Virus record (IMG/VR): IMGVR_UViG_3300035113_000023
Coordinates: 1 to 28,131 of that record
Length of the DNA stretch: 28,131 nt
From: a virus
Reading direction: 5' to 3' (one strand)
The notes beneath the pieces are model-generated. The model saw only the letters and a program-made list of their open reading frames with translations. It had not been told where the DNA came from and did not search any database. Each line of letters starts with the position of its first letter. Within the stretch, counting starts at the first letter, position 1. Shown here piece by piece: positions 5,503-21,987 of the stretch. The translations under genes and the position numbers were made by a program.

Positions 5503-7149
5503 ATGACAGTCATTAATCAGAATAATAAAGTTTCAGAATTAGGAAATGGTTCGAAAGTAACTTTTTCTTTTTCTTTTAAGATTTTTGATACTTCCGAATT
5601 AGTTATCTATAAAGTTGATGTTGCAACAGGAGTTGCAACAGGCCCATTAACTTTAGATTCAGATTACACAGCGACAGTTAATTCCACGTCGGAAGGAGGA
5701 ACTGTTACTTACTCAGTTGCACCTACGTCCGATGAGTATTCTCTTATTAAAAGAATTGTACCCTATACTCAATCAGCAGATTTGCAGACTGAAGGTACAT
5801 TGCCCGCGATTCAATTGGAAAATCAATTAGATTTAATGACGATGATGGTTGTTCAGTTAAAAGAAATCACGGACCGCAGTATTACATTACCGGTCGGCGC
5901 AACAGAAAGTATTTCTTTCCCATCGGCACAGGCCAGTTATTTAATTGGATGGAACTCAACAGGTGATGGCCTTACTAATTATGTGAATACGAGTTCGGGG
6001 ATTGACGCAACTTTGGCAGCGCAAGTCGCGGCGGATGCTGCCCAAGTAACAACTGATGCAGCAGCGGCGGCGGCAAGTGCAGCAGCAGCGGCGGCAAGTG
6101 CGGCTAGTATTAGTTTACCGTCGATTGGCGGAAACGCATTAAAAATTCTAAGAGCTAATAGTGGCGCAACAGCTCTTGAATATAAGACGATCGAAGAACT
6201 TCTTCAGTCTGATACAGATCTTACGATGGGTGGGATTCTGCGTTTTAAAAAAGGCGCAAATGTCGCATCTGCAAATACGATTGCATTAGGTGCTGACGGA
6301 AATGTTTTTAATATTACAGGTACAACACAAATAAATACGATTACAATTCACGCCGCAGGAACGGTTGCTTTTCTTTATTTTGCAGGAGCGTTGACTCTCT
6401 CGACGAGTGGAAATTTAAAAATGCCCGGATCGGTGAATTATACGACAGCGGCAAATGATTTAGCAATTTTAGTATCAGACGGAACCTATTGGCATGTTTC
6501 TATTGCATCAACCAGTACAACGCAAGGTAGACAATTATTCACTTCTAGCGGTACTTTTAATGTCCCATCCGGCGTAACTAAAGTTTATTTAACGATGGTT
6601 GCAGGGGGAGGCGGTGGTGCTGGCGGCGCTCAAACTCCGTCTAAAGGTGGCGGCGGCGGTGGCGGCGGTGCTTCATTACTAAAATATCCTTTAACTGTAA
6701 CTCCGGGTGCAGCTTTAACTGTTACAATTGGTGCCGGTGGTGCAGGTGGAACACCCGCAAATATCGCCGGTGTTAATGGGACGGTAGGAGGAAATACTTC
6801 ATTTGATTCTGTTACTGTCTCGGGCGGGGGTGCAGGACAAATGTCTGCCGGCGCTGGTTTATATGGTGCGGGAGGCGTTGGGGCAGGTGGTTTTGATGCT
6901 AGTGCGCAAACCGGAGGAACATCGGGACTTCAGGGCGGGAATGGGGCTGATGCAGATACTAATGGGGGCGGCGGCGGTGGAGGCACACCATTCGGTGCTG
7001 GTGGGACAGGTGCTAATAACGCAAATAGTAATGAAGCCGGACATGCAGCGACAGCAAATACAGGAGCCGGCGGTGGAGCCGGAGGTACAGATACAGGTGG
7101 AACCGTCGGAGGTAATGGCGGTTCAGGATTTTGTTTAGTTGAATGGTAA
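5503..7149 (+). CDS. Tail fibre: T7 gp17-type N-terminus with a glycine-rich tip
   Basis: Residues 1 to about 130 match the N-terminal adaptor domain of T7-like tail fibres, with the features I expect: NxxV-S-x-L-G-x-G beginning, the FSFSFKIFDTSELVIYK strand, a 'DYTATVN...GGTVTY' strand, and the 'ALQLENQLDLMTMMVVQLKE'-like helix that ends the domain (here AIQLENQLDLMTMMVVQLKE). An Ala-rich helical linker follows at about 168-205 (AAAAAASAAAAAASAAS). The C-terminal third, from about residue 367, is extremely glycine-rich (runs of GGGGGAGG, GGGGGGGG, GAGGAGG) and ends FCLVEW. Glycine-rich tips of this kind occur in phage adhesins, including the polyglycine-II sandwich of phage S16 gp38. The likely role is host-receptor recognition at the end of a T7-type fibre. 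The ribosome site is CAGGAGA. Confidence 0.8.
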   Translation: MTVINQNNKVSELGNGSKVTFSFSFKIFDTSELVIYKVDVATGVATGPLTLDSDYTATVNSTSEGGTVTYSVAPTSDEYSLIKRIVPYTQSADLQTEGTLPAIQLENQLDLMTMMVVQLKEITDRSITLPVGATESISFPSAQASYLIGWNSTGDGLTNYVNTSSGIDATLAAQVAADAAQVTTDAAAAAASAAAAAASAASISLPSIGGNALKILRANSGATALEYKTIEELLQSDTDLTMGGILRFKKGANVASANTIALGADGNVFNITGTTQINTITIHAAGTVAFLYFAGALTLSTSGNLKMPGSVNYTTAANDLAILVSDGTYWHVSIASTSTTQGRQLFTSSGTFNVPSGVTKVYLTMVAGGGGGAGGAQTPSKGGGGGGGGASLLKYPLTVTPGAALTVTIGAGGAGGTPANIAGVNGTVGGNTSFDSVTVSGGGAGQMSAGAGLYGAGGVGAGGFDASAQTGGTSGLQGGNGADADTNGGGGGGGTPFGAGGTGANNANSNEAGHAATANTGAGGGAGGTDTGGTVGGNGGSGFCLVEW

Positions 7150-7169: not shown

Positions 7170-7520
7170 ATGTCAATTTCACATGAATTTGAAAAAACAA
7201 CAGGTACTCTATCATTAGTTCCCGGTGTTGGATTTACTATGACAGCAACACCATTGTATCAACGTGATACTTTTCTTCTCGGTGTTTTTCTTCACTCATC
7301 TGTAAATATCACGGAAACTGTAACTGTTACTCGTGTATCTGCTGATGGGTCAACCTATGATGTTGTGTTGAATACATCTAATCTTACCTCAGCGTCAAAT
7401 TATGTTTATGTACCGACATTTCCGGTTCCTATTCAGAGAGGGGACAGTATTAAAGTGACTTGTACCGCGGCTAATACTACAGGAGTTGTATACGCAACGG
7501 TTATTTTAGGGGGAAGATAA
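7170..7520 (+). CDS. Small beta-rich virion-associated protein (116 aa), function unknown
   Basis: I do not recognise the family. The 116-residue protein is almost entirely predicted beta strand, rich in Thr, Val and Ser (for example ITETVTVTRVSADGSTYDVVL), with one cysteine and no signal peptide. It follows the tail fibre gene by 20 bases with a strong ribosome site (AAAGGAGA) and ends one base before the next ATG, so it belongs to the same late transcript. The composition resembles small jelly-roll or fibre-associated proteins that phages encode next to receptor-binding genes. A structural role, such as a fibre accessory or capsid decoration protein, is an inference from position and composition. 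Confidence 0.6.
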   Translation: MSISHEFEKTTGTLSLVPGVGFTMTATPLYQRDTFLLGVFLHSSVNITETVTVTRVSADGSTYDVVLNTSNLTSASNYVYVPTFPVPIQRGDSIKVTCTAANTTGVVYATVILGGR

Positions 7521-7521
7521 A

Positions 7522-8361
7522 ATGACTGACGAAGAAAAACTGAAACAGTTACAGGACCAAATAGCTGATTTGAATGGAAAAATTTTTGATGCATCTCAAA
7601 CTTTTATTTCATTAGGAAATAAAAATCAGGAACTCCAATCTGAAATAGATGGTTTAGAAAAAACGAAAACTGATTTATCCGTTCAGGTATCTGATCTTAA
7701 AAATCAGTTGGATGCAGCTTTACAAAGTCTATCTAATGTTTCAAATGAAAAAATAAAAGAGTTAGATGGAAAATTAAAAGAAGTTGATTCGAAACAGATT
7801 GAATTAGATAATTTAATTCAGAATAATTTGAATGAGAGTAAATTATTATCTGATCGAGAAAAAGAATTAGACCAGAAAGAACAGGATTTAAAAGATGAAT
7901 TAAATAGTACTGAAACACACCAACAGGAAATTGAAATTCACGAAAATGAATTAACTAAGTCTGATAGTGAACTTAATGACGCCCGAGCTAAATTTAATGA
8001 GGAATTAAATGAGTTCGAAAAAAAATATGCTCAGTATGAAAGTGATTTAGCTAATTTTTCAACTCTTAGAGATCAATTGATTTCAGATCAAAATCAATTA
8101 AATACCGATCGTGCAGTTTTACTAACAGATCAAACTACACTCCAAACACAAACCGCACAACTTAATGCTGATCAGGAAAACTTAAAAAAAGAGCAAGCTG
8201 ATTTACTGATAAAGCAAAATGATTTATCACAGAAACAAACTGAATTGGAAAGTGCAAGTGAAGATTTAGCAGCGAGAATTAAAAGAATTGAAGTCCGTGA
8301 GTTACGGGTAACAAAAGCTATTCAGGAGAAGCAGCTTGATCAAGAACTTATTAATAAATAG
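7522..8361 (+). CDS. Long coiled-coil protein (279 aa), function unknown
   Basis: Nearly the whole protein is a predicted coiled coil. It has continuous heptad-like spacing of Leu/Ile, high Glu/Lys/Gln/Asp content, no cysteine, no proline-rich breaks and no signal peptide or membrane segment. Repeated phrases such as 'xxELDxKEQDLKDEL' and 'DQxxLNxDxxxLxxxQxxL' give it an internally repetitive look, especially around residues 185-245. Such proteins act as rigid rods or trimerisation stalks (fibre shafts, tape-measure-like scaffolds). Its place between the T7-like fibre and the exported fibre-like protein suggests a stalk or assembly partner, but nothing in the sequence proves it is in the virion. 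The last 26 bases overlap the next gene, whose ribosome site (AGGAG at 8323) lies inside this one. Confidence 0.65.
   Translation: MTDEEKLKQLQDQIADLNGKIFDASQTFISLGNKNQELQSEIDGLEKTKTDLSVQVSDLKNQLDAALQSLSNVSNEKIKELDGKLKEVDSKQIELDNLIQNNLNESKLLSDREKELDQKEQDLKDELNSTETHQQEIEIHENELTKSDSELNDARAKFNEELNEFEKKYAQYESDLANFSTLRDQLISDQNQLNTDRAVLLTDQTTLQTQTAQLNADQENLKKEQADLLIKQNDLSQKQTELESASEDLAARIKRIEVRELRVTKAIQEKQLDQELINK
8323..8338 (+). promoter_or_regulatory. Ribosome binding site fixing a TTG start for the 976-aa gene
   Basis: AGGAG at 8323-8327 lies 8 bases before a TTG at 8336, inside the end of the coiled-coil gene. Starting there gives a textbook Sec signal peptide (Lys near the N-terminus, Leu-rich core, then SNAWA before DCD). 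The downstream reading has no ATG in a comparable position, so the site and the signal peptide support each other. Confidence 0.7.
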
Positions 8362-11266
8362 TTTATGTTTTCTATTATTGATTTCAAATGCATGGGCTGA
8401 TTGTGATGTCAGTATCGACGGATATTCTGTTTGTACTGACGATCTTCTTAATTTTAATGGTATAAATCCCGCACCGTCAGTTTCTAATTCTGGACAAGCG
8501 AGAATGTATTTTGATCTTATGTCCGGAAAATTAAAATGTTCTGAAAATGGCGGAGCATTTACCAATTGTGTAGGTAGTGGTGGATCATCTTCTTTAGGCG
8601 GGTTGACTGATGTGAGTGATGCAACCGCAACTGCCGGTCATTTATTGATTGCGAATGGTGCCACATGGGCCAGTAAAGCTATGAGTGGAGATTGTTCGAT
8701 CACGAGTGCCGGGGTTATGACTTGTGCGGGCAGTAATGCAACAGTTCCATATAATACACTTAAAACACCGACGACAAATACAGGAATAAATTTTGGATCG
8801 TTTACGAATACATGGACTTCAGCAGCGGGTAATGCGACATTTTTTACAATTCATGGGTCGTCTGATTTTATAGTACAGGGAGATGGTGATGTTATTGCAC
8901 CTTCGTTTACGGGGGCATTAATTGGTAATGCAACAACAGCAACGTCTTTAGCTGGAAATGGTACAAACTGCTCATCCGGAAATTATCCCCTTGGGGTAGA
9001 TGCAAGCGGAAATTCAGAAAGTTGTACAGCAGCTCCGACAGAATGCTCATCATCGTCTTGTACGTTAAATAGTGGTGATACTGCTACAACACAAGCGGCA
9101 TCAGATAACTCTACAAAAGTAGCGACGACAGCTTATGTAACGACGGCGATTTCTAATATTACTCCAACTGTTGCTTACGACCATATTACTGCTCCGACGA
9201 CAAATGCGGGTATAAATTTAAGTACATTTAATTCTATTTGGACCTCGACAACGGGAAGTAATACCTGGACTTCCACAACTGGAACGAACACTTGGACCAG
9301 TGGCGTTACTGCTGGTGATTATTTTACTATTAGTGATAGCGGCGCTTTTAATTCTAGTACTTCGGTATTAAAATTAAGTCGATCAAATGGTAATCCGACT
9401 GGTGGATCAATGTTAGGTATATTTAATTCTGATACGGATGTCGCGAGTATTCAAGCCCCGAATTTTATTGTTACACAGACGGGGGGAATAAAATCATCAT
9501 CAAACACATCCGGATCTATTTTAGTTGCGGATGGCACCTCATTTAATCCTGTTGTGATGAGTGGTGATGCAACAATTTCATCAACAGGATCATTAACTCT
9601 TGCTAATACAACTGTATCTGCAACTTCTTATACAAACACAAATTTAACAGTTGATTCTAAAGGTCGCATTACATCAGCTTCTAATGGAACAAGCGGGATT
9701 TCTTCAGTCGCCTACGATCAAATTACTGCACCAACGACTAATGCGGGTATCAGCTTAACTACATTTAACTCAATATGGACCTCAACGACAGGCAGTAACA
9801 CCTGGACCTCAACCACAGGAACGAATACTTGGACGAGTGGGGTTACGGGAGGAGACTATTTTACAATCTCAGACAGTGGGGCGTTTAATAATACAACGTC
9901 TATCTTAAAGTTAAGTCGTTCAAATGGAAATCCTACTGGCGGAGCTATGCTCGGGATAGTCAACACAGATACAGATGTTAAGTCTATTGATGCGCCTAAC
10001 TTTTCAGTTAATCAAGGCGGGAACGTTACGATGGCTGGTGATTTAACAGTTAGCGGTGATGATATATACATGGCGACTAACACGGCAGGTAATCTATTGA
10101 TTGCAAACGGCACAAGCTATAAACCTATTGCCATGTCGGGGGCTTGCACAATTACAAGTGCAGGAGTGATGACTTGTAGTGGGAATACTGTTTCAACTCA
10201 ATACGATCGCATTACTGCCCCGACGACAAATGCAGGTATAAATTTAAGTACATTTAATTCTATTTGGACCTCAACAACGGGTAGCAACACCTGGACTTCG
10301 ACGACGGGAACGAACACCTGGACAAGCGGCGTTACAGGAGGAGATTACTTCACGATTAGCGACAGCGGAAGTTTTGATGCTAGTAGTTCAGTCTTAAAAC
10401 TAAGTCGATCTGTTGGTAACCCGACGGGTGGCGCTATGCTTGCTATCGTCAACTCTGATACAGATGTTAATAGTATTCAAGCGCCAAATTTCACTGTTAC
10501 TCAAACAGGCGGAATTAAATCATCTTCTAATACGTCAGGTTCAATCTTAGTTGCAAACGGTACAACGTTTAATCCCGTCGTGATGTCAGGATCTTGTACT
10601 GTTTCATCGAGTGGTGTGATGAGCTGTACTGCAAGCTCAACTCCAACAGCTTTTGATCAGATTACTGCGCCAACAACAAATGGCGGGATTAACTTAGCTT
10701 CGTTCAACTCAACGTGGACAAGTACAACAGGAAGTAATACTTGGACAGCCTCGACGGGTACGAATCTCTGGACAAACTCGGCTACAACAGGTGATGGGTT
10801 TACAATTTCGGATAGCGCCACAAGAACAAGTGGTTCAGTGTTAAAAGTTTCAATGCCGACTAACTCAACTGGCGGTTCAGCATTAATAGCTTTAAACAAT
10901 GTTTACACCAGTACGTTATATGAGATAAACGGTGGGAATTTTACAGTTGATGGGTTAGCTAATGTTTCAGGAAAAACTTTAGCTTTATCGGGAACAGGAA
11001 CCCCCGGATTATCAACTTGCGGGACTTCCCCGACGGTTGCGGGTACAAATGCAGCGTTTACAGTAACAACAGGAAGTGGAAGTGTCGGAAATTGTACAGC
11101 GACTTTTGCTCAACCGACGGGCTGGACAACAGTTCCGACTTGTATACCTGGATGGGAATCTGGTCAAGCATTGACTTCGACATGGACAAGTACGGCAACA
11201 AATATCATTTTTAATCAAAACGCAATGGGAAGTAAAAAAGTAGATATTTTATGTATTGGGCATTAA
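8336..11266 (+). CDS. Exported fibre-like repeat protein with Sec signal peptide (976 aa)
   Basis: A TTG start with AGGAG gives a signal peptide of about 21 residues, cut after NAWA. The mature protein reads like a tail-fibre shaft. An 'NSGQARMYFDLMSGKLKCSENGGAF' type N-terminal block is followed by repeats of 'ITAPTTNAGINLSTFNSIW-TSTTGSNTW-TSTTGTNTW-TSG' and 'LLIANG...MSG-C-ITSAGVMTC' modules, and by a 'YTNTNLTVDSKGRITSASNGT' segment that is common in phage fibre proteins. The last roughly 90 residues form a Cys-containing beta domain (STCGTSPTV, NCTATF, TCIPGW, DILCIGH). I count 18 cysteines in the mature part, mostly in pairs, which suits oxidation outside the cytoplasm. Ordinary virion fibres lack signal peptides, so this may be a secreted or surface-displayed fibre rather than a conventional one. 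The first 26 bases overlap the coiled-coil gene. Confidence 0.75.
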   Translation: MIKNLLINSLCFLLLISNAWADCDVSIDGYSVCTDDLLNFNGINPAPSVSNSGQARMYFDLMSGKLKCSENGGAFTNCVGSGGSSSLGGLTDVSDATATAGHLLIANGATWASKAMSGDCSITSAGVMTCAGSNATVPYNTLKTPTTNTGINFGSFTNTWTSAAGNATFFTIHGSSDFIVQGDGDVIAPSFTGALIGNATTATSLAGNGTNCSSGNYPLGVDASGNSESCTAAPTECSSSSCTLNSGDTATTQAASDNSTKVATTAYVTTAISNITPTVAYDHITAPTTNAGINLSTFNSIWTSTTGSNTWTSTTGTNTWTSGVTAGDYFTISDSGAFNSSTSVLKLSRSNGNPTGGSMLGIFNSDTDVASIQAPNFIVTQTGGIKSSSNTSGSILVADGTSFNPVVMSGDATISSTGSLTLANTTVSATSYTNTNLTVDSKGRITSASNGTSGISSVAYDQITAPTTNAGISLTTFNSIWTSTTGSNTWTSTTGTNTWTSGVTGGDYFTISDSGAFNNTTSILKLSRSNGNPTGGAMLGIVNTDTDVKSIDAPNFSVNQGGNVTMAGDLTVSGDDIYMATNTAGNLLIANGTSYKPIAMSGACTITSAGVMTCSGNTVSTQYDRITAPTTNAGINLSTFNSIWTSTTGSNTWTSTTGTNTWTSGVTGGDYFTISDSGSFDASSSVLKLSRSVGNPTGGAMLAIVNSDTDVNSIQAPNFTVTQTGGIKSSSNTSGSILVANGTTFNPVVMSGSCTVSSSGVMSCTASSTPTAFDQITAPTTNGGINLASFNSTWTSTTGSNTWTASTGTNLWTNSATTGDGFTISDSATRTSGSVLKVSMPTNSTGGSALIALNNVYTSTLYEINGGNFTVDGLANVSGKTLALSGTGTPGLSTCGTSPTVAGTNAAFTVTTGSGSVGNCTATFAQPTGWTTVPTCIPGWESGQALTSTWTSTATNIIFNQNAMGSKKVDILCIGH
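9172..10800 (+). repeat. Four diverged internal repeat units in the 976-aa gene
   Basis: Units beginning near 9174, 9711, 10200 and 10651 encode almost the same protein (Y-D-x-I-T-A-P-T-T-N-x-G-I-x-L, then the W-T-S-T-T-G series, then GDYFTISDSG, then SVLKLSRSNGNPTGG). A weaker fifth copy begins near 8750. The DNA of neighbouring units differs at most synonymous positions. Units 2 and 4 nevertheless share a 62-base block (9194-9255 and 10220-10281) with only two differences. This is a coding repeat, not a CRISPR array. Confidence 0.85.
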
Positions 11267-11634
11267 CAATATTATTTTTATTATTTACTAATATATCTTT
11301 TGCTCAGGATTATTATTTGGTAATTGCTCCTAATGGTCAGGCTGTACGAATTATCCCGACGAGTGAAGTTAATTTTACAGATAATGAGAAAAAACTTTTT
11401 AAAATCGTTGTGGTTACTTTAGACAATACAAATTTTTATCAATTTACAGACCCGTTATTCCAACAGACGAATATTGATATTAAAGATAAAAACGGAAATA
11501 CAATAGACTCTTATGTTACGAGAGCGAACAAAATTGATACGAGTACAATTTTAGGAAAGGAGGAGGCGGTTGCAACAACGGCTATTAGTCAAAAGATTTC
11601 TACTGTTTCTAGTGCTGATGTTACCAGCAAGTAA
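11251..11634 (+). CDS. Small exported protein (127 aa), function unknown
   Basis: The protein starts with a clear Sec signal peptide of 18 residues (hydrophobic core LTILFLLF, cleavage after NISFA before QDYY). The mature part of about 109 residues is mixed alpha/beta and has no cysteine. It contains two beta-type stretches (YYLVIAPNGQAVRIIP and KIVVVTLDNTNFYQF) and a Ser/Thr-rich C-terminus. The ATG at 11251 overlaps the end of the 976-residue gene by 16 bases, and its own last 65 bases overlap the next secreted-protein gene. The three genes are thus linked at the translational level. I do not recognise the family. A periplasmic accessory role for one of its neighbours is an inference. Confidence 0.6.
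   Translation: MYWALTILFLLFTNISFAQDYYLVIAPNGQAVRIIPTSEVNFTDNEKKLFKIVVVTLDNTNFYQFTDPLFQQTNIDIKDKNGNTIDSYVTRANKIDTSTILGKEEAVATTAISQKISTVSSADVTSK
11557..11572 (+). promoter_or_regulatory. Strong Shine-Dalgarno AAGGAGG fixing a TTG start
   Basis: AAGGAGG at 11557-11563, with a second overlapping AGGAGG at 11561-11566, precedes the TTG at 11570 by an ideal spacing. The site sits inside the preceding gene. Starting at this TTG gives a complete signal peptide. Confidence 0.75.
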
Positions 11635-12862
11635 AATTTTTGCTGTAACAGAATTTCAGACAACGTGGTGTACTTCTGGTTGTGATTATACTGCCGCGTC
11701 AACGGCAATTACAGCTTTAGCTTTAGCGGGAAATATTAAAGCGGCTTCTAATCTTGCAAAAACTGGAAATTGGACGAATAAAGTTGGGAGCAGTATTACT
11801 GATAATGCGGCGGTTACATGGGACGCGGGAGCGAGAACAGGCCATTTAATTCACATGACAGGAACTCAATATTTAATTTCTTGCACGACGACAACTGATT
11901 GTACCAATTTGGGGGCGGGGGATACTGTTTCAGATGGAACAAATACTTTTGATATTAGTGGCGCGCCCGATAGTGCAATTGTCAGAATAAACTGCCATGA
12001 AAACGCAACGTTTAATGATAACTTTACTGTTTCGATGGGGGCCGCAACAAATTCAGATGCAACAAATTATATGATTGTCGGAGTTGATTCAGGATTTAGA
12101 CATAATGGAACTTCGTCTACCGGGTGTAAGGTTCAATCTAATGCGGCGGCAATTACGGTAACTTTAGGCAGCCATAGCAGTACGGCGGAGTGGTTAAGAA
12201 TAGGGTTAAATTTATCGAATGGTACTAATGCGTCATGTGCTTCTACTTCAGCAACGTTTGGGAACTGGAATTTAGGATTTAGAAATGTAATCGTCGAAAA
12301 TTGTGTTAATTCAGGAGCCGGAAGTTTTAGAGGTGTTACATTAGGTCATTCAGCAAATACAGGGAACCCGGTTAATTATATTCAAAACTCTATTGTTTAT
12401 GGGTCAGAAAGCGATGGTATTCAATTTAGTGGGTCTGCGACGGGTGTCGATAACTCAATTTGGAATAATACTTCTTATGGTAACGGGGGATGGGGAATTA
12501 CAGCAGGAGGTGGCGGAATAGAAGTTGTTAAAAATAATTTAGCTTGCCAAAATACAAGCGGAGATTATCAAGGCACATATGATACTTTTACGAGTAATGG
12601 GAGCTGTGATACATCAGGGACTTCGGGCTTAACGAGTTTAACTAATAGTGCAGAATTTGTAAATACGGGAAGCAATGATTATCATTTAAAATTAAGTGCA
12701 GTTTCCATCGACAAAGGAACAAATTTAGGTTCGTCAAATAATATCAATATTGATATAGATAACACAACCAGAATTGGTGCTTGGGATATAGGAGCTGATG
12801 AGGCTTATGATTACAAATTTATTGCAAACGGTGGTATTTATAATGGGGGCATCTACCATTGA
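11570..12862 (+). CDS. Exported right-handed beta-helix protein (430 aa)
   Basis: A TTG start directly after a perfect AAGGAGG gives a signal peptide of about 25 residues (KRFLLFLVLMLPASKIFA, cut before VTEF). The mature protein is Asn/Gly/Ser/Thr-rich and has the periodic short strands of a parallel beta-helix, for example 'NVIVENCVNSGAGSFRGV', 'NYIQNSIVYGSESDGIQF' and 'DNSIWNNTSYGNGGWGI'. It ends with the 'DKGTN...IDIDNTTRIGAWDIGADE' closing motif often seen at the end of secreted right-handed beta-helix proteins. I count ten cysteines, several in pairs (WCTSGC, SCTTTTDC). The fold is used by polysaccharide lyases and phage tailspike depolymerases. No catalytic residues can be assigned from sequence alone, so substrate and activity are unknown. 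Confidence 0.75.
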   Translation: MQQRLLVKRFLLFLVLMLPASKIFAVTEFQTTWCTSGCDYTAASTAITALALAGNIKAASNLAKTGNWTNKVGSSITDNAAVTWDAGARTGHLIHMTGTQYLISCTTTTDCTNLGAGDTVSDGTNTFDISGAPDSAIVRINCHENATFNDNFTVSMGAATNSDATNYMIVGVDSGFRHNGTSSTGCKVQSNAAAITVTLGSHSSTAEWLRIGLNLSNGTNASCASTSATFGNWNLGFRNVIVENCVNSGAGSFRGVTLGHSANTGNPVNYIQNSIVYGSESDGIQFSGSATGVDNSIWNNTSYGNGGWGITAGGGGIEVVKNNLACQNTSGDYQGTYDTFTSNGSCDTSGTSGLTSLTNSAEFVNTGSNDYHLKLSAVSIDKGTNLGSSNNINIDIDNTTRIGAWDIGADEAYDYKFIANGGIYNGGIYH

Positions 12863-13351: not shown

Positions 13352-13555
13352 ATGGGATTATTAACAAAAATCGAAACATTTTTAGATGGTAAAAAAACTT
13401 ACATCATTGCTCTTTTAACCGGCGGATTAGGGATTTTTATGGCGACGGGCCATGTAGTACCAGAATGGGTCTGGACTATTTTAGGCGCTGCTGGATTGGG
13501 TGCCGTTCGATCGGCAATCGGAAACTCAACAAACACAACAACGCTGACGAAATGA
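13352..13555 (+). CDS. Holin-like small membrane protein (67 aa)
   Basis: The product starts MGLLTKIETFLDGKKTY, followed by a hydrophobic segment (IIALLTGGLGIFMATG), a short turn with Val-Pro-Glu-Trp, and a second moderately hydrophobic segment (VWTILGAAGLGAVRSAIG), ending in a Thr/Asn-rich polar tail. The 'xGKKTYI' beginning followed by one or two membrane segments is frequent in small phage proteins annotated as holins. Holins form inner-membrane lesions that start lysis. A strong ribosome site (AAGGAGAG) precedes the ATG. The stop overlaps the next start (ATGA), placing it in a compact lysis block with the lipoprotein gene. The length suits a holin, but the call depends on topology and position. 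Confidence 0.6.
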   Translation: MGLLTKIETFLDGKKTYIIALLTGGLGIFMATGHVVPEWVWTILGAAGLGAVRSAIGNSTNTTTLTK

Positions 13556-13746
13556 GTCCCTACTTAACCATTATTGTTTTCATTATTAAGTTATTAGATA
13601 AACTTTCAGAAACGTTATCTAAAAAACATAAATTGGATGATATTAAAAATGTGGAAAAAATTGTTGACACTCATAACGATGTCGCTCTTGCTCAACAGTT
13701 GCGCGATATTGCCGATAAAGTCGAGCAGCGACAGAAAACCGCCTAA
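13552..13746 (+). CDS. Possible inner-membrane spanin (Rz-like), 64 aa
   Basis: The ATG overlaps the stop of the holin-like gene (ATGA). The product has a short hydrophobic N-terminus (YLTIIVFIIKLL) and then a charged helical region (LSETLSKKHKLDDIKNVEKI, later LRDIADKVEQRQKTA). A different frame of its second half encodes a lipoprotein with a lipobox, the nested arrangement that is characteristic of Rz/Rz1 spanin pairs. The hydrophobic part is short for a membrane anchor and the protein is small for Rz, so the assignment rests mainly on the overlap with the lipoprotein gene. Confidence 0.5.
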   Translation: MSPYLTIIVFIIKLLDKLSETLSKKHKLDDIKNVEKIVDTHNDVALAQQLRDIADKVEQRQKTA

Positions 13747-13846
13747 GAGTTTAAAGACAGGAGATCTGGCACCGAATGATTGTGTCTGTGTTGATCCGTC
13801 AGATTTAAAAATGCTCTTAGAAGAAACTAAAAGATGTAATCCTTAA
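13649..13846 (+). CDS. Rz1-like outer-membrane lipoprotein (o-spanin), overlapping the preceding gene
   Basis: Starting at the ATG at 13649, the product has a short basic N-terminus (MWKK), a hydrophobic core (LLTLITMSLLL) and a lipobox LNSC, which predicts cleavage and lipid attachment on the Cys. The mature peptide of about 47 residues is Pro/Lys/Ser-rich at first (KSSSDRKPPKS) and has three further cysteines (DCVCVD and RCN). This matches the outer-membrane half of a two-component spanin, which joins inner and outer membranes at the last step of lysis in Gram-negative hosts. An alternative in-frame ATG lies at 13637. The first 98 bases lie in another frame of the preceding gene. The stop overlaps the next ATG (TAATG). 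Confidence 0.7.
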   Translation: MWKKLLTLITMSLLLNSCAILPIKSSSDRKPPKSLKTGDLAPNDCVCVDPSDLKMLLEETKRCNP

Positions 13847-15015
13847 TGCAATTTTTTCTATTAAGAATAAGTTTAATTCTGATTCCATTATGTTTGGCTG
13901 TTGGATTTTTTCCTATTTTACCGGAAACAGTCACTGAATATTTAAGAGCTAAAGATTTTTTGGCTCTTTTCTTTGCAGGAATTATTTCTTTCTCATATTT
14001 ACTTGAAGGTTCATTTAAAAAACAAAAACTTATTTGGATAAATATTTTACTTTTTTATATTATCCTTAATCAGTTTTTGGTCCCGCCGCTTGAACTCTAT
14101 TCCGACGATCCGATGAAACGGATCCTTTCTAAAGTCGTCGCAGATCTTTGGGGATATAAACCATTAAGTTTTATATTAATCTATTATTTGTTTTTTTTAA
14201 CAATTCAGGAAGTAGTCACTTCCGCATTGTCAAAAGAACTGATAATGAAAACTCTAATGTGGATCGGATATATCTCCGCCGGGTATGTTATTTTTCAAGC
14301 ATTAGGAATGGACCCATATCAGCAGATCAATAATATCCAGGGGTCAAGACTTACTACATCGAATAATCTTACCTCATTTATGACCCATCCGAATTATTCT
14401 GGATCGTTTATTGCAATCTGTATTCCATTCGCAATTTATTTTAAAAAATATTGGAAAATGGTGACTATGATCGTTACTGTTTTCTTAACCAAATGTTGTT
14501 TTGCGATCGGCGCAATGACTGCTGGAATATTATTTTATATATGGGTGAAAAGTAAAAACTCGAAATATGAATTGGCGGTTAATGTTTTTATCTTATGCAC
14601 ATTAATATCGGGAATTTCAATTTGTCATATCCATCATTTTAATGACCATGGCCGAACTGAAGTATGGTTTCAGATGTATGAAGATCTCAAGTCTCGACCT
14701 TTTTTTGGGTATGGGCTAGGATCTTTTCCAGTTTTGTTTCCGTTATGGCACCATAGAAATTGGTATCAAGCCCATAACGAAGTTCTTCAATTTTGTTTTG
14801 AAACCGGGTATGTCGGCGGGTTTATATTACTCTCAGCTATTTTTTCGTTTACAAAATCAGCAATAGAAAAACACCAAAATAATGATATTTTACTTGCTTT
14901 GACAAGTAGTTTTATTATAATCTTGATGAGTAGTATAGGGCTTTTTGTATGGCAAATTGAGCCTCATCGGTACATCTCGGTAGTTATTGCCGGGTTAATC
15001 ATATCTTTTTTATAA
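13846..15015 (+). CDS. O-antigen ligase/polymerase-like (Wzy_C family) membrane protein
   Basis: This 389-residue polytopic membrane protein has about ten hydrophobic segments. Between the later segments lies a long periplasmic loop with family hallmarks: a 'GRTEVWFQMYEDLKSRPFFGYGLGSF' block (residues about 269-294), followed by 'WYQAHNEVLQFCFETGYVGG' (about 306-325), which holds the His-Asn of the conserved 'HNxxLxxxxExGxxG' motif. An earlier loop contains 'GSRLTTSNNLTSFMTHPNYSG', resembling the 'GTFxNPNxxA' site of the family. Members (WaaL, Wzy) join or polymerise undecaprenyl-linked O-antigen in the periplasm. Length fits the family. Phages are known to carry wzy-type genes that change host O-antigen and block superinfection (for example D3 and epsilon15). 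The stop of the lipoprotein gene overlaps its ATG. Confidence 0.85.
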   Translation: MQFFLLRISLILIPLCLAVGFFPILPETVTEYLRAKDFLALFFAGIISFSYLLEGSFKKQKLIWINILLFYIILNQFLVPPLELYSDDPMKRILSKVVADLWGYKPLSFILIYYLFFLTIQEVVTSALSKELIMKTLMWIGYISAGYVIFQALGMDPYQQINNIQGSRLTTSNNLTSFMTHPNYSGSFIAICIPFAIYFKKYWKMVTMIVTVFLTKCCFAIGAMTAGILFYIWVKSKNSKYELAVNVFILCTLISGISICHIHHFNDHGRTEVWFQMYEDLKSRPFFGYGLGSFPVLFPLWHHRNWYQAHNEVLQFCFETGYVGGFILLSAIFSFTKSAIEKHQNNDILLALTSSFIIILMSSIGLFVWQIEPHRYISVVIAGLIISFL

Positions 15016-15031: not shown

Positions 15032-15370
15032 ATGAAAAAGAAAATTGCAAGTATTTTAGTAATTGTAATGCTTTTATCCGTATCTGCTTGGGCGGGAAAC
15101 ATGTATCTAAACGGAACAACTAAAGGGGCAATTACTGATATTAATTTTGTTGGGCCGACTTCGATTACGGGGCAATCGAAAAAGACAATTGATATTACCC
15201 AAATTACCCCGGCGTCATCGACAACCGCAATTGCGGCTTATACTTGTACAGCCGGTGCATTAAATTCATGTTCGTGTTATACAACGACAAATGCGGCTAA
15301 AATAGGAGCCATAAAAATTACAGTTAATGGCTCAACTCAATGGTTACGCACATATCAAGATCCAAACTAA
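15032..15370 (+). CDS. Small exported protein (112 aa), function unknown
   Basis: An AAAAGGAGA site precedes the ATG. The product begins with a classic signal peptide of 21 residues (MKKK, hydrophobic core SILVIVMLLSV, cleavage after SAWA before GNMY). The mature part of about 91 residues is Thr/Ala/Ile-rich and beta-like. It has three closely spaced cysteines (YTCTAGALNSCSCYTTT) and ends with WLRTYQDPN. I do not recognise a family. It follows the O-antigen ligase-like gene by 16 bases and looks like a further member of the exported, cysteine-containing set in this arm. A periplasmic or surface location is predicted; the role is unknown. Confidence 0.65.
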   Translation: MKKKIASILVIVMLLSVSAWAGNMYLNGTTKGAITDINFVGPTSITGQSKKTIDITQITPASSTTAIAAYTCTAGALNSCSCYTTTNAAKIGAIKITVNGSTQWLRTYQDPN

Positions 15371-21206: not shown

Positions 21207-21761
21207 TTATTTCCAGTAAAATGTGGTGTTACCTGAGTTAGTTTTTTGAGATAGTTTACCTTGAACCCAAATGTTTAAATCAGAATTGAAGGTTGATACT
21301 GATTCCTTATTTACCTTAAAACTTAAAATAATTTGCCATGACCAGTCACCAATATTAGTTGTTGTCATTGGATGTCCTAAATAAACTGATCTGGGAAAAA
21401 CAACTCCTGAATCTTGAAATACATGAGAATCACCGACAATTACTGACGGATTAAGATTATTTAAACTGGCTAATGCTGTTGTGTATGCAATTGGAGCCAT
21501 GTTTTTTAAATACACTTGGACAGTTAAACCCCCATCTGAAGTTGAATACGTTGCCAATTGATAAATATAATTAACATTACTCCCAATAACATTTGATCCT
21601 GCATTTATTGGAACACCGTTGTATTTAATTCCAGTCCAACTTGAATTATCCGGAATTAATACATCGTTAATGACTGGTTTTGGCGGAAGAACTCGACTAA
21701 AAGCCTGTGCCATCGCTGTCGTCATAAAAACAGCAATTAAAACTAACATTATTTTTTTCAT
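21207..21761 (-). CDS. Exported protein (184 aa) inside the replication operon, function unknown
   Basis: The ATG at 21761 has AGGAGA just upstream and gives a clean Sec signal peptide (MKKIMLVLIAVFMTTAMAQA, cut before FSRV). A longer in-frame start at 21791 would place about ten polar residues before the signal and is less likely. The mature part of about 164 residues is beta-rich, with many Asn, Ser, Thr and aromatic residues (NYIYQLATYSTSDGGLTVQVYL, DWSWQIILSFKVNKESV) and the C-terminal end TFYWK. It has no cysteines. The look is that of a small extracytoplasmic beta-sandwich protein, but I recognise no family. Its position among DNA-metabolism genes implies early expression, so it could modify the envelope soon after infection, for example in superinfection exclusion. 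That role is an inference. Confidence 0.65.
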   Translation of the reverse strand: MKKIMLVLIAVFMTTAMAQAFSRVLPPKPVINDVLIPDNSSWTGIKYNGVPINAGSNVIGSNVNYIYQLATYSTSDGGLTVQVYLKNMAPIAYTTALASLNNLNPSVIVGDSHVFQDSGVVFPRSVYLGHPMTTTNIGDWSWQIILSFKVNKESVSTFNSDLNIWVQGKLSQKTNSGNTTFYWK

Positions 21762-21768
21762 ATTTCTC

Positions 21769-21987
21769 CTAGGGTTTGTAGTTTTGGACAAAATTCAGTC
21801 CTGACTTTTTTGTTTTTTTATATAAAACTCTTTTCGAGAGTTGAATTGGCCCTTGCGGTGAATTTAGTTTCACCAATTGGCCCCGATTAATTCTCACCCC
21901 ATTTTCTAAAAAAACATAATGCCGAAAAAGAGGTGAATCATCTCCGTAAATAAATTTTCTGATTTTTCTAGCTTTTTTGCCGTTCAT
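21769..21987 (-). CDS. Small basic hypothetical protein (72 aa)
   Basis: A 72-residue, strongly basic protein (NGKKARKIRKFIYG near the start, LSKRVLYKKTKKSG near the end) with a beta-like middle (HYVFLENGVRINRGQLVKL). It is coupled to the SNF2 helicase by an ATGA overlap and has AAGGTGAT before its ATG. The charge suggests nucleic-acid binding, but no motif is diagnostic and no family is recognised. Confidence 0.55.
   Translation of the reverse strand: MNGKKARKIRKFIYGDDSPLFRHYVFLENGVRINRGQLVKLNSPQGPIQLSKRVLYKKTKKSGLNFVQNYKP

Follow-up and report, generated by a model that had tools for sequence, protein, structure and literature searches.

Gene content of the late operon

The window analysed here is the whole 28,131-nucleotide stretch of IMG/VR record IMGVR_UViG_3300035113_000023, and it forms part of the 42.3-kb podovirus record IMGVR_UViG_3300035695_000009. 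The phage is T7-like and encodes a terminase, tail and internal virion proteins, DNA polymerase A and a VapE/Prim-Pol replication protein; its head-tail connector (portal) is related to those of pelagiphages. Profile searches found no PF00589 (tyrosine) integrase in this phage (G001) or in the two relatives discussed below (G002 and G004), and a search with defence-system profiles gave no match.

In the late operon, three consecutive overlapping genes on the plus strand encode proteins of 976 aa (8336..11266), 127 aa (11251..11634) and 430 aa (11570..12862), with overlaps of 16 nt (976/127) and 65 nt (127/430); in this respect, the preliminary description was accurate. They are flanked by a virion-type fibre on one side and holin/spanin-like genes on the other. 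The upstream genes, on the same strand, encode an ordinary virion-type tail fibre (5503..7149; 548 aa, one cysteine, no signal peptide, matching Gly_rich_2 and tail-fibre PHROGs), a small beta protein with one cysteine (7170..7520), which shares 49% identity over 84 aa with the G004 gene in the equivalent position, and a cysteine-free coiled coil without a signal peptide (7522..8361), which overlaps the 976-aa gene. Downstream, i-spanin-like and o-spanin-like (Rz/Rz1-like) frames overlap at 13465-13846, the latter with the lipobox LLNSC. This o-spanin-like lipoprotein indicates a diderm host.

Signal peptides and cysteine pairs

Signal peptides were called with a home-made, rule-based Sec/SPase I score rather than SignalP. 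The 976-aa protein (13.9) and the 430-aa protein (14.2) scored within the range of Escherichia coli signal peptides (11.8-15.4). Their predicted signal peptides are MIKNLLINSLCFLLLISNAWA, cleaved before DC (8336..8398), and MQQRLLVKRFLLFLVLMLPASKIFA, cleaved before V (11570..11644). The former is of the SPase I type, and the residues preceding the first mature cysteine (AWAD) do not form a lipobox. Both genes start with TTG, preceded by AGGAG at a spacing of 7 (8336) and by AAGGAGG at a spacing of 6 (11570), and none of their alternative starts has a Shine-Dalgarno sequence, so the TTG starts with good ribosome sites that had been proposed were borne out. The start of the 976-aa gene is independently supported, since its N-terminal 85 aa, signal peptide included, are 48% identical to the ORF L192:4572-7808 of G004, which aligns from residue 1 and has an ATG start there. 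The N-terminus of the 127-aa protein (MYWALTILFLLFTNISFA, followed by Q) resembles a signal peptide, yet it is rejected by the rule for lacking n-region charge; thus, of the three complete Sec signal peptides originally described, two stand and the third is weaker. As only about 7% of mechanical ORFs of at least 100 aa pass the rule, several passing proteins in one operon are unlikely to reflect chance.

The two larger proteins contain 18 and 10 mature cysteines, against one, one and none in the ordinary fibre, beta protein and coiled coil, in agreement with the earlier counts. The 18 cysteines of the 976-aa protein form nine consecutive close pairs, tighter than expected from random placement (p = 0.00025). 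This protein resembles a fibre shaft, with four shaft repeats (ITAPTTN.GI), and its motif MSG[DAS]C..(8)..C is a cysteine version of the common shaft motif SGDVT...T. The cysteine-pair motif, on which the survey described below is based, has its first copy (MSGDCSITSAGVMTC) at 8681..8725; further copies lie at 10133-10177 and 10583-10627, and in a cysteine-free copy of the GDC...TC motif (MSGDATISSTGSLTL, 9557-9601) both cysteines are replaced (A/L).

None of the 976-, 127- and 430-aa proteins had a credible Pfam or PHROG match or matched a virion-adaptor or tail-fibre profile, whereas the 548-aa fibre does match, and no catalytic domain was recognised in the exported proteins of the window. 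The 430-aa protein, probably a beta-helical tailspike-like protein, had no Pfam, NCBIfam or PDB sequence match. AlphaFold, suggested earlier as a check, gave models too poor to use for the C-terminus of the 976-aa protein (pLDDT 35) and for the mature 430-aa protein (pLDDT 40), although the latter model was strand-rich; a PDB fold search with it returned insignificant matches alone, several of which were beta-helices.

A conserved slot with exchangeable contents

The distant podovirus G004 (IMGVR_UViG_3300014914_000023, or L192) encodes an exported fibre of 1079 aa. In its gene order, internal virion proteins are followed by the small beta protein and the coiled coil, then by the exported fibre, the exported LamG lectin, a further small exported protein and the lysis genes. 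The order in the window matches, with the 430-aa protein standing where G004 has the lectin. The counterpart of the coiled coil (L192:7805-8713) corresponds in place and size class, the similarity being weak and of coiled-coil composition. The exported lectin directly after the G004 fibre (L192:3839-4597) carries a Laminin_G_3 domain.

The nearest relative of the window phage, the 41-kb G002, has a portal 63% identical to that of the window phage. Both phages keep the ordinary fibre, but in G002 the slot after it is occupied by an unrelated exported spike of 824 aa with a Peptidase_S74 domain. In this spike (L015:14673-17144), a hydrophobic C-terminal segment lies behind the chaperone domain, as if the chaperone were membrane-anchored before autocleavage. 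Taken together, the two comparisons indicate that a slot for exported fibre-like proteins has been kept while its contents were swapped, a pattern typical of receptor-binding genes. No exported fibre-like proteins were found in the tail regions read of the more distant phages MW202485 and HTVC010P.

G002 also shares two genes downstream. One encodes a Wzy_C (O-antigen polymerase/ligase-like) membrane protein (13846..15015, plus strand), and it closes the late operon in both the window phage and G002 (L016:1679-2764), two phages that lack a tyrosine integrase. Beside it, also on the plus strand, lies a gene for a small protein of 112 aa with a signal peptide (15032..15370), 30% identical to its G002 counterpart (L016:1048-1620). 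Thirteen further records with exported fibres lack Wzy_C.

Exported fibre-like proteins in uncultured viruses

Many other uncultured viruses also encode fibre-like proteins with export signals. We scanned IMG/VR with the pattern SGDCT(L/I..)xxxGx(..)TC and obtained 41 stretches, the survey thus resting on one motif. The search of viral metagenomes for fibre-like proteins with signal peptides proposed in the preliminary description was productive: after removal of redundancy, 30 frames had an intact upstream end, and 27 of these pass the signal-peptide rule. Among the three that fail, L029 and L048 appear by eye to have a signal peptide, and L054 is apparently split, with its start in a neighbouring frame. 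A second cysteine motif added one further real relative (L192), its remaining matches being short or split frames.

As a control, a cysteine-free version of the motif gave 7 of 96 proteins with a signal peptide, among the matches listed, in a set biased towards low-GC contigs (median GC 0.40 vs 0.59 for the cysteine-motif set). Within the GC range 0.50-0.58, the difference persisted (12/12 vs 1/5, p = 0.002); above 0.58 it was not significant, and much of the contrast between 27/30 and 7/96 may reflect lineage. Given this confounding by GC and lineage, we place the weight on comparisons within genomes. Among neighbours of fibre-like composition in the same contigs, exported proteins (n=17) contain 1.67 cysteines per 100 aa and non-exported ones (n=30) 0.66 (p = 9e-6). 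In a first count, the number of mature cysteines was even in 11 of 14 complete exported members.

Exported genes are clustered, with two or three in a row at several survey loci, and ordinary fibres often adjoin them; in L036, a fibre-like protein is followed by an exported beta-helix protein, as in the window. We scanned 37 proteins, drawn from the window phage, G002 and the survey set, against Pfam; individual proteins matched Collar, S74, GDSL, Gly_rich_2, mtd_2nd and BppL_N, which are tail-tip or receptor-type domains. Annotated PHROG matches among the neighbours include baseplate wedge, tail fibre, tail, portal, head and terminase families. Only 1 of 32 exported proteins has a mature N-terminus matching that of a non-exported fibre (against 92 others).

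Searches of 50,697 phage records found no homologues of the three window proteins beyond shared fibre modules, and direct searches in IMG/VR gave nothing besides the source contig and generic fibre modules. Exact-pattern and tblastn searches of deposited phages revealed no isolate with such a homologue; the matches were shared shaft modules in proteins that, where checked, lack a signal peptide, such as HMO-2011 gp43. Bacterial and archaeal genomes totalling 257 Gb yielded four matches to the survey motif, one of which is a frame of 27 residues. As far as exact-pattern and tblastn searches can detect, the exported class therefore appears almost confined to uncultured phages. We found no report of tail fibres with signal peptides in the open-access literature. 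Lessievirus (JC1 and BcepIL02) was considered as an example because two S74-bearing fibres of JC1 are unlisted among its virion proteins; it was rejected, since no credible signal peptide is present in the BcepIL02 relatives.

Possible functions of the exported proteins

The usual assumption is that receptor-binding modules belong to the virion and fold in the cytoplasm. The window proteins share modular shaft repeats with tailed-phage tail fibres such as the 548-aa fibre and HMO-2011 gp43, and a 43-aa stretch of the exported fibre in L045 is 81% identical to gp43, which itself has no signal peptide. They differ from such fibres in having a signal peptide, many paired cysteines and no known virion-adaptor N-terminus; the tail fibres of Lessievirus BcepIL02 likewise have no convincing signal peptide. 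Similarly, the exported spike of G002 ends in the S74 chaperone domain of Peptidase_S74 tailspikes but adds a Sec signal peptide in front and the hydrophobic segment behind.

The reading of the window proteins as exported, disulphide-bonded and fibre-like is well supported by sequence comparison, through a signal peptide and gene order kept in a distant phage and through the motif survey; the 127-aa protein, which lacks cysteines, fits it in part. Delivery to the cell surface, also suggested earlier, is not well supported: with signal peptides, no lipobox, no recognised outer-membrane translocator and an o-spanin-like lipoprotein in the same phage, the products are predicted to stay in the periplasm until lysis. 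Because tailed-phage virions assemble in the cytoplasm, the exported proteins should be unavailable to them before lysis. This, together with the receptor-tip modules and N-termini unlike those of virion fibres, leads us to favour secreted receptor-binding or fibre modules that are made late and act on the host envelope, with a probability of about 0.45.

Under this envelope-action proposal, receptor-binding and fibre modules of the phage would be made in a soluble form, exported by Sec and stabilised by disulphides, from genes transcribed late together with those of the virion. Their products would be translocated, cut by signal peptidase, and folded and oxidised in the periplasm, where they could not be built into virions assembling in the cytoplasm. 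They would accumulate beside the lysis proteins until the cell opens and frees them. Their most likely target is the envelope of the dying host itself (outer membrane, O-polysaccharide), where binding or trimming of the receptor would exclude superinfecting phages and spare progeny from capture by debris. The sequence itself supports the position in a late structural operon, the signal peptides, the pairing of cysteines, the fibre or spike architecture, the conserved gene order and the retention of the ordinary fibre; we infer the periplasmic location, disulphides, late timing and blocking or trimming function.

A functional parallel is the Llp protein of T5 and BF23, a phage-encoded receptor-blocking lipoprotein that is exported in lytic infection, is presumed to spare progeny from debris and is encoded beside the receptor-binding gene (PMC4728585). 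In T5, the corresponding task falls to a different kind of protein: Llp is an early-expressed lipoprotein, whereas the window proteins are large SPase I-type fibre proteins of a late operon and have no lipobox. The late Wzy_C genes of the window phage and G002 are in keeping with envelope action, but their absence from the 13 other records speaks against it. Receptor-binding proteins set free at lysis could, moreover, coat uninfected cells as well, to the detriment of the progeny.

The main rival of envelope action, which like it we infer, is that the proteins are virion appendages, exported, disulphide-bonded in the periplasm and docked on finished virions at lysis, perhaps on the upstream coiled-coil rod. 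The position of the genes within the structural module beside the tail genes and the tail-tip domains favour such late docking, as does the fact that, in the two phages sharing the exported fibre, the beta protein and coiled coil come directly before it. The short length (237 aa) of the only other fibre-like protein seen in G004 also speaks for late docking. On the other hand, there is no shared docking domain, the mature N-termini are unlike those of virion fibres, an ordinary fibre is already present, and we know of no tailed phage with such a post-lysis route of fibre assembly. Late docking is accordingly a secondary possibility for the window proteins, and we consider it slightly more doubtful that a whole class of tailed-phage fibres is Sec-exported, disulphide-bonded in the periplasm and added to finished virions only at lysis. 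It is unlikely, though conceivable, that the proteins bind or degrade polysaccharide, acting as secreted depolymerase or esterase spikes or as lectins; they would then loosen the capsule, slime or O-antigen surrounding the lysing cell and let the burst escape, and masking of the receptor would be no more than a by-product. Beta-helix, GDSL and LamG domains do occur among exported proteins and their exported neighbours, and the 430-aa model is strand-rich, but the window proteins show no recognised catalytic domain.

The two remaining explanations fare worse. If these were ordinary virion fibres, the hydrophobic N-terminus would be a docking or membrane segment instead of an export signal. The genes do adjoin fibre genes and the signal peptides are predictions; however, canonical n/h/c regions and AXA-type sites recur in dozens of phage contigs together with mostly even, paired cysteines, and most ordinary fibres sharing the shaft motif lack a signal peptide, among the matches listed, which makes this improbable. 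Least probable of all is that they are conversion or cargo adhesins by which temperate phages help the host bacterium: an integrase was found in one of six phages tested and one member lies in a Bradyrhizobium genome, but the four motif matches in cellular genomes contrast with the 41 in IMG/VR, and the window phage has no PF00589 integrase.

If the exported, disulphide-rich class is real and widespread, many uncultured phages would also secrete receptor-binding modules or finish their virions outside the cytoplasm. Such a class would account for some of the unannotated 'tail fibres' seen in metagenomes, and it would mislead host-range predictions that take every fibre-like gene as a virion receptor-binding protein.

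Other exported products of the window phage

Exported phage lysis proteins (signal-peptide endolysins and spanins) are likewise Sec-routed and encoded at the same end of the operon, but the window proteins differ from them in lacking a muralytic domain and in their fibre architecture. Among the minus-strand replication genes, a 194-aa protein with a signal peptide (21207-21791) had no Pfam hit above the cut-off and no PHROG match. Just past the end of the window (L006:325-726) lies a gene for an exported Hydrolase_2 cell-wall hydrolase of 133 aa, a candidate signal-peptide endolysin.
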